A DNA stretch of 64,000 bases, taken from assembly GCF_000688475.1 (NCBI RefSeq), contig NZ_JIAN01000005.1:124001-188000 (forward strand). Direction: 5' to 3'. Source of the DNA: Cellulomonas sp. URHE0023 (lineage in GTDB: Bacteria; Actinomycetota; Actinomycetes; Actinomycetales; Cellulomonadaceae). Of the stretch, positions 25,969-29,221 are shown one piece after another. A program made the translations under genes and the position numbers. Every line of letters begins with the position of its first letter. The first letter of the stretch is position 1. The notes beneath the pieces are model-generated. The model did no database searches. It saw only the letters and a program-made list of their open reading frames with translations, and was not told the origin of the DNA.

Positions 25969-26316
25969 TCAGGCTGCAGGCGCCGCGTCCTTGCGAGGCC
26001 GTCCGCGACCGCGCTTGGTCGCGACGACCACACCGCCGACGAACACCTCGCCGCCCCAGACGCCCCACGGCTCGGCACGCTCGATAGCGCCGGCCAGGCA
26101 GCCCTCGATCAGCGGGCACTCGCGGCACAGGGCCTTGGCCTGCTCCACCTGCGAGGTCCGCTCGGCGAACCAGAGCTCCGGGTCGTTGGACCGGCATGGG
26201 ATGAAGTCGGCGACCAGCTGGTCGAACTGCTGCCGGTCGTCGGTCGTGCTCTCGGTGACGGGCCAAGGACCGGATCCGCCCTGGTTCACCGTGTCGAGCA
26301 GCGTCGTGAGCCGCAC
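25969..26316 (-). CDS. whiB7: WhiB7-type transcriptional regulator
   Basis: 115 aa from the GTG at 26316 with AGGAGG 5 nt upstream; the longer frame from 26355 lacks an SD. Four [4Fe-4S] cysteines: C41, C64, C67, C73 (IPCRSND, CRECPLIEGC), the EPWGVWGGE turn (82-90), and a C-terminal AT-hook RGRGRPRK (102-109). The AT-hook, the motif and the location directly downstream of uvrD2 are diagnostic of WhiB7, which binds SigA and activates intrinsic antibiotic-resistance genes and itself. It is preceded by a 330-nt leader with a uORF and attenuator, and by an AT-rich promoter like those WhiB7 recognises. Confidence 0.95.
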   Translation of the reverse strand: MRLTTLLDTVNQGGSGPWPVTESTTDDRQQFDQLVADFIPCRSNDPELWFAERTSQVEQAKALCRECPLIEGCLAGAIERAEPWGVWGGEVFVGGVVVATKRGRGRPRKDAAPAA

Positions 26317-26407
26317 GATGTCCTCCTGATGTCCTTGCTGGTGAGCGTCTTGCATCGGTGCCGGACCGACTGCCTCTCGCTCACCCGGTTCATCGGGAGA
26401 AACAGAA

Positions 26408-26440
26408 AGGCCGCGGATCCGAGTTCGGATTCCACGGCCT
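26408..26440 (-). terminator. Rho-independent attenuator in the whiB7 leader
   Basis: On minus-strand RNA a stem of AGGCCGUGG-AAUCCG against CGGAU-CCGCGGCCU (one bulge, one G-U pair) is followed by UUUCUGUUUCU (26407 downwards). It is the only U-tracted terminator I found in the window. It lies 17 nt after the uORF stop and 91 nt before the whiB7 start, so it controls read-through into whiB7. Confidence 0.85.
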
Positions 26441-26457
26441 ATGACCCTTTCGAGGGC

Positions 26458-26646
26458 CTAGAGCATGAGAATCCGCTCATACGTACGACGATCGGTCCAC
26501 GTGGAAATCGACACGTGGCCGACCGGCGTGAGGGCGGCACCGCCGATGGGCAGAGCGCTCCCCTGGGAGCCGAACGTGGTGGGTGCGAGAGATCGCGGCA
26601 TGAACGCGCAGACGGCGTTCGACAGATCGATCTTCGTGATGTTCAT
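26458..26646 (-). CDS. whiB7 leader uORF (62 codons)
   Basis: ATG at 26646 with AAGGAGG 11 nt upstream; begins MNITKIDLSNAVCAFMPRSL and ends ERILML-stop. An in-frame GTG at 26658 overlaps the SD and is unlikely. It lies between the whiB7 promoter and the attenuator, as in the uORF-controlled whiB7/wblC leaders described in mycobacteria and Streptomyces. The codons for R-I-L near the end contain CGGAUUC, exactly complementary to GAAUCCG in the terminator's 5' arm, so a ribosome finishing the uORF would hide it and one stalled earlier would expose it. The peptide itself is probably not functional. A hairpin CGGTC-CACGTG/CACGTG-GACCG (26493-26525) lies mid-uORF. Confidence 0.75.
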   Translation of the reverse strand: MNITKIDLSNAVCAFMPRSLAPTTFGSQGSALPIGGAALTPVGHVSISTWTDRRTYERILML

Positions 26647-26715
26647 CAGGGCACCCACCTCCTTCCGACTCGGACCCTCGCGTCTTCCGCGCGGCCCATC
26701 AACAGGGACATCGTC

Positions 26716-26745
26716 ACCCTAGGGCGGCGTTCCGAGGCTCGACAA
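26716..26745 (-). promoter_or_regulatory. whiB7 promoter
   Basis: Minus strand: TTGTCG (26745-26740), 18-bp spacer, TAGGGT (26721-26716). Immediately upstream is an AT-rich stretch (TTAATTGTG) unusual in this genome. WhiB7-dependent promoters carry AT-rich sequence just upstream of the -35, read by the AT-hook, so autoactivation is expected. The SD of the uORF is 60 nt downstream. Confidence 0.7.
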
Positions 26746-26801
26746 CACAATTAACGAGAATTCTTCGACGAGTTTCTGCCATCCGCGCTGACGGCTTCCG
26801 T

Positions 26802-28769
26802 TCAGCGCACAGGCGAGCGCAGAGCCTCGAGGATCTGCTCCCCCACGTCGGCCAGGACCTTCGGGCCGACGCCGCGCACCTGACCGAGCTCCTCCAGGTT
26901 CGCGGGGCGACGCTCAGCGATCGCACGGATGGTCGCGGTCGTCAGCACCGAGCCCGGCTGCCGGCGCAGGTCGGCGGCTCGGGCGTCCCGCCACCGCGTC
27001 AACGACTCGACCAGCTGCGCGTCCGGCTCCGCGGTGGGCGCCTTGACGGACCGGCGCTCACCCGGCCAGAGGTCCGTGAGGAAGCGTGAGACGTTGCGCG
27101 ACGCACGTGCCCGGGGGTGCCGGGCCCGCGAGTAGGACAGCTCAAGATGCTCGCGGGCGCGGGTGACGCCCACGTAGAGCAGCCGCCGCTCCTCGGCGAT
27201 CGCGGCGTCGGACTGTGCCTGCACCGTGGGCAGGAGGCCCTCGGAGAGCCCCACCAGGAACACGGCCTCCCACTCCAGGCCTTTCGCTGCGTGCAAGGAC
27301 GCGAGCGTGACTCCCTCGACTGTCGGAGCGTGCTGCGCGGCGGCACGCTCGTCGAGCTCGGCCACGAGGTCCGCGACCGTCGGCGTCGTGCCCGTCGGCG
27401 GGGCGGCCGTGAGTGAGTCGGCGAGCGAGACGAGCGCCTGCAGCGCGTCCCATCGTTCGCGGCTCGCACCACGCCCCTCGGGCGCCTTCTCCGTCCACCC
27501 TGCCGAGCGCAGGATGTCTCGCACGGCCTCCGGCATCGGCACCTCAGGGTCCGCGCTCCGGGCGCCGCCGCGCAGGAGGACCAGCGCCTTGCGCACGTCG
27601 GCGCGGTCGAAGAAACGGGCGTTGCCGCGCACCTGGTAGCCGATCCCCCGGTCCGCGAGGGCGGCCTCGAACGCCTCCGACTGCACGTTGGTCCGAAACA
27701 GGACGGCGATCTCAGCCGCCGGCAGGCCGCCACGGACCAGCGCCGCGATCTGGGCGGTGACACCGATCGCCTCCGCCTCGTCGTCCGCGTACGTGACGAA
27801 CGAGACGTCCGGGCCGTCGGGACGCTGCGCGCGCAGGGCGAGCGCGGCCGGACCGTCGGCCCGCCGCATGAGGTGGTTGGCCAGCCCCACCACCTGCGGC
27901 GTCGACCGGTAGTCCCGGACGAGCTCGATGGTGGTGGCCCGCGGGTACGACGCCGTGAACGCCGTCAGGTGGTGGGCCGAGGCACCCGCGAACGAGTAGA
28001 TGGTCTGGCTCGGGTCACCGACCACGCACAGCTCGTCGCGACCGCCGAGCCACTGATCGAGCAAGTACTGCTGCAGCGGGCTCACGTCCTGGTACTCGTC
28101 GACCACGAAGTACCGGTACTGCTCCCGCACCGAGTCGGCGACATCCCGCCTCTCCGCCAGCATCGCCGCGAGCAGGAGCAGCACGTCCTCGAAGTCGATG
28201 ACGCCCTGCTGGTCCTTCGCGGTCTCGTACGCCGTCATGAGCCGGGCCACCGACTGCGGGTCGATCCCGCCAGGAGCGGGGCGGTCCGTGGCAGCCGCAG
28301 CCTTCTCGTAGTCGTCCGCGGTCACGAGCGAGACCTTGGCCCACTCGATCTCCGATGCCAGGTCCCGGACGCTCTCCCGGTCCGTCTCGACCCCGACCAG
28401 CTGCGCAGCATGCGCCACGACCTGCAGCTTCTTCTCGAGGATCCTCGGAGGCGGACCTCCGACGACCTTGGGCCAGAAGAAGCCGAGCTGACGCAGTGCG
28501 GCCGCGTGGAAGGTTCGCGCCTGGACGCCGGACGCGCCGAGAACGCGCAGGCGCGTCCGCATCTCGCCCGCGGCGCGGGCCGTGAACGTCACGGCGAGGA
28601 TGTTGCCCGGCCGGTAGGCGCCCACCTGGATGCCGTACGCGATCCTGTGCGTGATGGCCCGCGTCTTGCCCGTCCCCGCGCCCGCGAGCACCCGGACGGG
28701 CCCGCGCAGCGTCGTCGCGACGGTCCGCTGCTCAGGGTCGAGCGCGTCCAGGAGGGGTTCGGAGGACAT
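26802..28769 (-). CDS. uvrD2: UvrD2-like superfamily 1 DNA helicase with HRDC domain
   Basis: 655 aa. 3'-5' ATP-dependent helicase: Walker A LAGAGTGKTRAITHRI (from residue 28), VTFTARAAGEM, Walker B FVVDEYQDVSPLQQ, VVGDPSQTIYSFAGA, LVRDYRST, LASLHAAKGLEWEAVFL and LYVGVTRAREHL. The last ~80 residues are an HRDC domain (TIRAIAERRPANLEELGQVRGVGPKVLADVGEQIL). Mycobacterial UvrD2 carries a tetracysteine motif between the helicase and HRDC parts; no cysteines are present in that stretch here. The ATG at 28769 (MSSEPLLDALDPEQ) was chosen because Q-motif-like sequence starts there; residues upstream are antisense to mrx1. Divergent from mrx1. Confidence 0.94.
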   Translation of the reverse strand: MSSEPLLDALDPEQRTVATTLRGPVRVLAGAGTGKTRAITHRIAYGIQVGAYRPGNILAVTFTARAAGEMRTRLRVLGASGVQARTFHAAALRQLGFFWPKVVGGPPPRILEKKLQVVAHAAQLVGVETDRESVRDLASEIEWAKVSLVTADDYEKAAAATDRPAPGGIDPQSVARLMTAYETAKDQQGVIDFEDVLLLLAAMLAERRDVADSVREQYRYFVVDEYQDVSPLQQYLLDQWLGGRDELCVVGDPSQTIYSFAGASAHHLTAFTASYPRATTIELVRDYRSTPQVVGLANHLMRRADGPAALALRAQRPDGPDVSFVTYADDEAEAIGVTAQIAALVRGGLPAAEIAVLFRTNVQSEAFEAALADRGIGYQVRGNARFFDRADVRKALVLLRGGARSADPEVPMPEAVRDILRSAGWTEKAPEGRGASRERWDALQALVSLADSLTAAPPTGTTPTVADLVAELDERAAAQHAPTVEGVTLASLHAAKGLEWEAVFLVGLSEGLLPTVQAQSDAAIAEERRLLYVGVTRAREHLELSYSRARHPRARASRNVSRFLTDLWPGERRSVKAPTAEPDAQLVESLTRWRDARAADLRRQPGSVLTTATIRAIAERRPANLEELGQVRGVGPKVLADVGEQILEALRSPVR

Positions 28770-28851
28770 CGCGCCCAGTCTCGCAGCCCGCGCCCACAGC
28801 ACCGGACGGCCTGTGGACGAGCAGGACCGACCACCGCACGCGTCGGCTACC

Positions 28852-28880
28852 TTGACCGACGCTCGTCCCGTGCCGATAGA
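28852..28880 (+). promoter_or_regulatory. possible mrx1 promoter
   Basis: TTGACC (28852-28857), 17-bp spacer, GATAGA (28875-28880) in the uvrD2-mrx1 divergent gap; implies a leader of about 74 nt. The -10 is weak. Confidence 0.35.
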
Positions 28881-28960
28881 CCGAGCACCGAGCGCGGAAT
28901 CAGCGCGAGGTCCCCCGCGTTGCTGCCTGCAGCACCCATCACCGACCATCTCGAGGACCG

Positions 28961-29221
28961 ATGACCACGCAGACCCTGCCCGCGACCGGCACCGTGACGA
29001 TGTACTCCACGACCTGGTGCGGCTACTGCCGTCGGCTGAAGACACAGCTGGACTCCGCGGGCATCGGCTACACGGAGGTCGACATCGAGAACCACCCGGA
29101 CGCGGCCGCGCTCGTCGCCTCGCTGAACGGCGGGAACCAGACCGTCCCGACGGTGGTCTTCCCTGACGGGTCGGCGGCGACGAACCCGTCGCTCGTGGAC
29201 GTCAAGGCGCGCCTGACCTGA
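28961..29221 (+). CDS. mrx1: mycoredoxin 1 (glutaredoxin-like)
   Basis: 86 aa. Glutaredoxin fold with the active site C20-G-Y-C23 (MYSTTWCGYCRRLK) and the cis-Pro segment TVPTVVF near 62-67. Mycoredoxins reduce mycothiol-protein mixed disulfides in actinobacteria. Between uvrD2 and nudC it occupies the Rv3198A position. GAGGA lies 3 nt before the ATG. It converges with nudC, 42 bp apart. Confidence 0.95.
   Translation: MTTQTLPATGTVTMYSTTWCGYCRRLKTQLDSAGIGYTEVDIENHPDAAALVASLNGGNQTVPTVVFPDGSAATNPSLVDVKARLT

Follow-up and report, generated by a model that had tools for sequence, protein, structure and literature searches.

A conserved, covarying RNA pairing and a probable ribosome-controlled attenuator in the whiB7 leader of Cellulomonas sp. 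URHE0023

The whiB7 locus and its leader

We analyzed a 64,000-nt stretch of the genome of Cellulomonas sp. URHE0023 (hereafter the window), in which whiB7 is encoded on the minus strand. This gene, also called wblC, governs actinobacterial intrinsic resistance to ribosome-targeting drugs. Its product matched the Pfam WhiB family (E = 7e-16), with an AT hook scoring below the cutoff, and a search against NCBIfam returned no family for it at E <= 0.001. The locus is the best of five matches in its own genome, and its name as a WhiB7 orthologue rests on best matches across the class. An in-frame ATG at 26355, 39 nt 5' of the GTG start, would give a WhiB7 of 128 codons; the better Shine-Dalgarno (SD) sequence lies at the GTG. 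Upstream on the minus strand, an ORF of 747 aa (26802-29045), which we take to resemble a UvrD-type helicase, stops 47 nt short of the AT-rich promoter box of whiB7. The features of the leader and the gene are as follows.

26749-26754, minus strand: AT-rich box TTAATT, 3 nt 5' of the -35 box
26740-26745, minus strand: -35 box TTGTCG, separated from the -10 box by 18 nt
26716-26721, minus strand: -10 box TAGGGT, from the sequence and the family pattern
26658-26663, minus strand: SD sequence of the uORF, AGGAGG, from the sequence
26458-26646, minus strand: uORF of 62 codons plus UAG (ATG at 26646, TAG at 26460-26458)
26548-26562, minus strand: putative pause-like, nucleotide-constrained element GGGAGCGCTCTGCCC, with a putative RNA 3' end near 26552
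26464-26475, minus strand: 5' strand of the antiterminator in the last uORF codons (CGGAUUC, a bulged U, CAUG), from folding and conservation
26443-26458, minus strand: apical hairpin GGCCCU-CGAA-AGGGUC, beginning at the G of the stop codon
26408-26440, minus strand: intrinsic terminator hairpin, whose 5' arm (26440-26426) is the 3' strand of the antiterminator
26399-26407, minus strand: interrupted U-tract UUCUGUUUC, from the sequence
26322-26327, minus strand: SD sequence of whiB7, AGGAGG, from the sequence
25969-26316, minus strand: whiB7, GTG start at 26316, 115 codons, from the Pfam WhiB match

An original prediction made from the letters of this region had placed the promoter TTGTCG-18-TAGGGT, an SD-led uORF of 62 codons, a terminator and the SD and GTG of whiB7 in this order on the minus strand, and every coordinate that it gave was correct. 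A generic consensus scan of the leader listed neither the promoter nor the terminator; it missed the latter because the U-tract is interrupted. A search of 26290-26800 with Rfam 15, carried to E = 1, matched no model, and the only match at the gathering threshold in the whole window was a tRNA.

We collected leaders from relatives at two levels. At E <= 1e-20, WhiB7 matches were found in 77 of 81 genomes of the genus and 192 of 200 of the family. Family leaders were taken from 115 of the matched genomes; a pattern search placed a terminator core in 107 of them, the eight lacking it were left out, and removal of nine duplicates gave 98 distinct leaders. At E <= 1e-16, matches were found in 239 of 295 genomes of the class. 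Leaders were taken from 40 of these 239, with cores located in 38, and from 80 named loci, with cores located in 72, of which 48 distinct ones were kept. The resulting 184 distinct leaders are not independent, since the named loci that were kept are largely from Streptomyces. Among the no-match genomes listed, all 16 genomes of one other family of the same order (f5) lack a WhiB7 match at this threshold, and none of its genomes is among the matches; this family may have lost whiB7, and a further 36 no-match genomes lie outside that list.

Of the 98 distinct family leaders, 83 carry the promoter pattern (0.4 expected), 81 of them with a spacer of 18 nt. The 15 nt 5' of the -35 box have a mean AT content of 0.55 over the 83 leaders, and a similar AT-rich box is present there in the first 25 of the 83 rows listed. 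The reported binding site of WblC is GAAAWY, 3 nt 5' of the -35 box (PMC7157823). The TTAATT box lies at the matching distance, although its letters do not match GAAAWY exactly, and it is probably a site of WhiB7 autoregulation.

The terminator and a competing helix

The terminator hairpin is followed on the minus strand by TTCTGTTTC. The stretch 26441-26403 folds at -25.4 kcal/mol (z = -5.6), and none of 200 shuffles was as good. The U-tracted terminator of the original prediction thus holds up in its hairpin; the U-tract is present, but interrupted.

The same prediction had proposed that CGGATTC in the last uORF codons (26475-26469) pairs with GAATCCG (26432-26426) in the 5' arm of the terminator. 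The complementarity is present on the minus strand. Taken alone, it is close to chance: a run of 7 nt also arises in about 7% of dinucleotide shuffles, and the same two regions share a second one, TTCCACG/CGTGGAA. The match becomes significant only because it is conserved in relatives. In addition, the real extent of the pairing is larger than was first seen. When the RNA preceding the 3' arm of the terminator (26480-26426) was folded, the predicted structure was a single rod of 21 pairs that includes the stop-codon hairpin; its energy is -26.4 kcal/mol (z = -4.4), which none of 200 shuffles reached. Its segments are CGGAUUC:GAAUCCG, CAUG:CGUG, UCUA:UAGG and GGCCCU:AGGGUC, and it occupies nearly all of the terminator 5' arm. 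The apical hairpin (26458-26441) has a predicted energy of -9.0 kcal/mol and, in this folding model, may persist in both the terminator and the antiterminator state. A hairpin of -4 kcal/mol or better is found at the uORF stop in 86 of the 98 family leaders (median z = -1.8). The small stop-codon hairpin (26458-26443 in the window; leaders L001-L123) recurs with very different letters across the family.

A second structure had been suggested for the uORF end, a protecting hairpin AUGAG/CUCAU. It exists in the window, where all seven pairs, counted with the flanks, can form, but it is not conserved. It is complete in one of 56 leaders, that of the window, the other 55 keep at most four of the seven pairs, and 148 of 390 cells (38%) are paired over the 56 rows. 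We therefore rejected it as a general part of the leader.

The uORF and its peptide

An SD-led ORF with a stop near the terminator is present in 182 of the 184 distinct leaders, a count to be read against the fact that long open frames are common in GC-rich DNA. The stop codons are TGA in 123, TAG in 55 and TAA in 4; in the window, the stop lies 17 nt 5' of the terminator hairpin. A peptide pattern in the middle of the uORF recurs in 116 of the 182 uORFs, compared with 6.4 in shuffled peptides. Such recurrence would be expected if the uORF product were an arrest peptide, stalling in response to certain drugs or to a shortage of certain amino acids; the sensor would then be the peptide itself and not the general status of translation. 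The recurring part is, however, constrained at silent positions. Many family uORFs share GG[G/C]-NNN-NST-STG-YCC near codon 28. In 46 distinct family instances, chosen from the 98 uORFs by amino acids alone, codon 4 of the element ends in T in all 46 (7.4 expected, judged by codon use in the rest of these uORFs), codon 5 ends in G in all 46 (16.1 expected), codon 6 ends in C in 41 (19.2 expected) and codon 2 ends in G in 36 (8.8 expected), with no departure from expected codon use at codons 1 and 3. Of 22 instances from outside the family, 18 have T as the last letter of codon 4 (5.0 expected). The p-values of these counts are too small, because the leaders are related. Given that the bias falls on third positions at silent sites, it indicates a nucleotide signal and not a peptide.

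The remainder of the evidence also speaks against a sensing peptide. The uORF peptide showed no net conservation, with a median dN/dS of 1.0 over 55 close pairs, a ratio that is inflated by RNA constraint at silent sites. Furthermore, the codon phase at the uORF end differs among leaders. The pairing element there is usually GGACTCC- or GACTCCG-like and lies 4 to 30 nt 5' of the stop in the 98 family leaders. Its codon phase is 0 in 49 of them, 1 in 44 and 2 in 5, with the reservation that the frame of a few uORFs may have been assigned wrongly. This points to RNA letters, rather than amino acids, being kept at the uORF end: what is retained there is a pairing and not a peptide. On these grounds, we regard the arrest-peptide explanation as improbable.

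Conservation and covariation of the pairing

In all 98 distinct family leaders, the predicted nascent fold had six or more of 10 arm nucleotides paired with uORF codons. The z-score of these folds had a median of -2.45 and was below -2 in 66 of the 98. When the upstream part was shuffled, the arm was still paired in 626 of 980 controls, because the GC-rich arm easily finds partners. This frequency, together with the near-chance 7-nt match in the window alone, is what can be said for an ordinary terminator, for example one serving transcripts of the upstream gene, with a merely coincidental complementarity to the uORF end. Comparisons among leaders were used to distinguish a coincidental from a maintained pairing.

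We aligned the family leaders by sequence only, in two sets, A1 (56 rows) and A2 (42 rows), a split that was made by predicted partner position and thus leans towards structure. Paired cells amounted to 82.5% in A1, against 22-52% when slid, and to 92.0% in A2, against 28-49%. Cells that changed on both sides numbered 11 in A1 (5.6 in shuffles) and 3 in A2 (0.5 in shuffles), and in each set 2 of 500 shuffles were as high. When whole pairs were counted, the excess was modest: 3 in A1 (1.8 in shuffles; 87 of 500 as high) and 2 in A2 (0.5 in shuffles; 28 of 500 as high). RNAalifold recovered the helix de novo from A2 and found nothing in the 56 rows of A1. Compared with its nearest relative (G038), the window carries U-A in place of a C-G pair inside the helix. 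A ranking of swapped arms within the family gave a mixed result, the own arm being first of nine in 8 of 18 genomes with a variant arm; the window is one of these eight, by a tie.

Among the leaders of the class, those of Streptomyces pair UUCCGUGG with CCGCGGAA (L221 from S. coelicoflavus and L240 from S. cyaneofuscatus), and leader G223 has the arm CCACGGAC and the upstream strand GUCCGUGG. We performed a swap test on the 184 distinct leaders, which carry 18 arm types. The fit of the uORF ends to their own arms was -1.86 kcal/mol beyond the row and column means (z = -5.1). Permutations, which assume that the arm types are independent, gave 0 +/- 0.37 kcal/mol, and none of 20,000 was as low. 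The arm type of the window scored lowest (-4.8, followed by -4.7), and two of the 18 types were slightly positive, meaning that their own tails fit worse than expected. The same test on control regions was null, with z = 0.8, 0.2 and 1.5 for three upstream regions and -0.4 for one downstream region.

The original prediction had called for covariation between 26469-26475 and 26426-26432 across leaders. It is seen as compensatory changes, as independence from codon phase and in the swap test with its null controls. By this covariation, we regard the antiterminator pairing as established. The swap test with its null controls and the codon-phase independence of the pairing element argue against a coincidental complementarity, and a conserved promoter separates the hairpin from the upstream gene. 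An ordinary terminator is thus highly improbable.

A probable ribosome-controlled attenuator of whiB7

The leader combines the anatomy listed above with a conserved, covarying pairing. From this, we infer that it is very probably a ribosome-controlled transcription attenuator of whiB7 in Cellulomonas sp. URHE0023, with masking, termination, read-through and autoregulation as its proposed steps. A ribosome at a stop codon covers roughly 15 nt upstream of the P site and a dozen nucleotides downstream, and the geometry of the leader fits masking by a terminating ribosome. During healthy translation, a ribosome would follow RNA polymerase through the uORF and end at the UAG (26460-26458), where it would cover CGGAUUC (26475-26469) and open the apical hairpin. 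The terminator at 26440-26408 would then form, and transcription would stop. If, on the other hand, the ribosome stalled anywhere up to about codon 52, or if no ribosome were on the uORF, the uORF end would be free to pair with the 5' arm of the terminator as it emerges. The 21-bp rod would form first, transcription would read through into whiB7, and WhiB7 would then probably raise the activity of its own promoter. Since termination would be decided by a ribosome at the stop, the proposed switch would report completion of the uORF, whatever slows the ribosomes. In leaders whose pairing element lies at least 24 nt 5' of the stop, a ribosome ending at the stop would sit over the middle of the rod and not over its base.

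A different account would have Rho acting on untranslated leader RNA to set premature termination, with the hairpin being secondary. The leader is indeed long and GC-rich. However, blocked translation should then lower whiB7, and in M. tuberculosis treated with linezolid, downstream transcription was reported to be lowered with whiB7 as a notable exception (PMC10937400). Moreover, the terminator and its rival helix are both conserved, so that control by Rho has a slimmer chance still than an ordinary terminator. For the attenuator proposed here, by analogy, the linezolid exception has the right sign. Least probable of all, to the point of being negligible, is translational control by a leader structure that hides the whiB7 SD: the minimum-energy fold through the whiB7 start does put this region in helices, but the terminator lies about 80 nt 5' of the SD and the downstream control region did not fit the arm specifically (z = -0.4).

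A constrained element as a candidate pause site

The constrained element near codon 28 can be written as GGN6TSTGYCC, which occurs in 110 of the 184 leaders, against 2.0 expected from shuffles that ignore relatedness. It is present in 64 of the 98 family leaders, in 36 of the 48 distinct named loci and in 10 of the 38 class leaders, the last belonging to 5 of 18 families and including five of the six leaders of family f22. Since the pattern occurs once in the 64-kb window, against 4.45 expected, the lone copy carries no meaning by itself. Within the uORF, the element is strongly constrained at the level of its nucleotides.

The extended consensus for pausing of RNA polymerase has been given as G-11G-10T-3G-2Y-1G+1 (PMC6062546). 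The element of the window agrees with it in five of six letters, with C at -2. Among the 110 leaders, TGTG is found in 47 and TCTG in 63. In 61 of the 64 family cases, the would-be RNA 3' end falls 82-103 nt into the uORF. Accordingly, a pause at about uORF codons 26-31 (GGNNNNNNTSTGYCC) might be a third part of the attenuator in the family, in Streptomyces and in some other actinobacteria, a suggestion that we make tentatively and hold to be somewhat less probable than its opposite. Under this pause reading, polymerase would be held about 82-103 nt into the uORF until a ribosome loads and catches up, so that the uORF end would truly report the progress of the ribosome. The E. coli-type pattern GGN6TGYG is only mildly enriched (76 of 184 leaders, 46.8 expected), and neighbouring spacings are enriched too (GGN5TSTG in 79 and GGN7TSTG in 116, about 30 expected for each); the nucleotide constraint is therefore firmer than the pause reading. 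GN6TGYG was not enriched (130 against 122.4 expected in the 184 leaders).

We considered other roles for the element. No RNA partner for GGN6TSTGYCC was found in seven tested regions (|z| up to 1.1). A GGG/YCC hairpin was rejected, as it would be one pair short in the majority of leaders from outside the family, 84% of which have C at the third position. For Streptomyces, an internal start site is improbable, since its instances of the element have no AGGGG in front of them. Among the titles and abstract openings listed for whiB7 together with pausing, antitermination or uORFs, none reports such an element.

Relation to known systems

In the attenuators of amino-acid operons such as trp, the position of the ribosome selects between exclusive RNA helices, and pausing of the polymerase keeps the two machines in step. 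The proposed whiB7 switch resembles them in that ribosome position would decide between mutually exclusive helices. It differs in that no run of regulatory codons was seen in the uORF, and in that absent translation is expected to switch whiB7 on.

The nearest relatives are the whiB7/wblC attenuators themselves. Translation of the uORF is described as favouring the terminator and disturbed translation the antiterminator (attributed to Lee, Lee and Roe 2022 by PMC11550727 and PMC13393426), and ribosome stalling in the uORF is described as inducing whiB7 (PMC13236596, citing Lee et al. 2022). These accounts bear out the original remark that uORF control of whiB7/wblC is known in mycobacteria and Streptomyces. 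An SD-led uORF and an intrinsic terminator before the gene are common to those systems and the present leader, for which the translation-dependent choice of helix described there is predicted as well. The two Streptomyces leaders named above, L221 and L240, show a rod equivalent to that of Cellulomonas, whereas their uORF peptide differs and the place of CGGAUUC/GAAUCCG is taken by UUCCGUGG/CCGCGGAA. For M. marinum and M. bovis, a uORF and a terminator have been described in the whiB7 leader (Dinan et al. 2014, PMC4128351). As in Cellulomonas, an SD lies about 10 nt before a small uORF, and a stem-loop with a T-rich tail follows at the uORF end, where transcription is described as dropping in those species; the sequence differs, and an antiterminator is not among the parts described in the available text of that report. 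The switch type is thus already published for Mycobacterium and Streptomyces, and this leader is very probably a new case of it. What is added is the base-level coordinates of such a switch, supported by covariation, for one more family.

Attenuators of antibiotic-response genes other than whiB7 follow similar lines. For vmlR of Bacillus subtilis and for are5sc/tiaA of Streptomyces coelicolor (PMC12421871), the choice between terminator and antiterminator is likewise described as depending on whether a small leader ORF is translated. The are5sc/tiaA leaders differ in their very short leader peptides and in stalling at the start codon (PMC12421871).

Other observations in the uORF

The SD region of the uORF, GGTGGGTGC (26659-26651), is perfectly complementary over 9 bp to GCACCCACC (26586-26578, codons 21-23). 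Over the family, the mean longest run was 6.59, compared with 6.13 in codon shuffles, and there was no covariation (z = -0.45); this pairing was rejected and stands outside the model. An AP[TIVA] motif is frequent at codons 21-23 of family uORFs, where its Pro codon is CCC in 61 of 67 cases, compared with 111 of 235 later in the uORFs.
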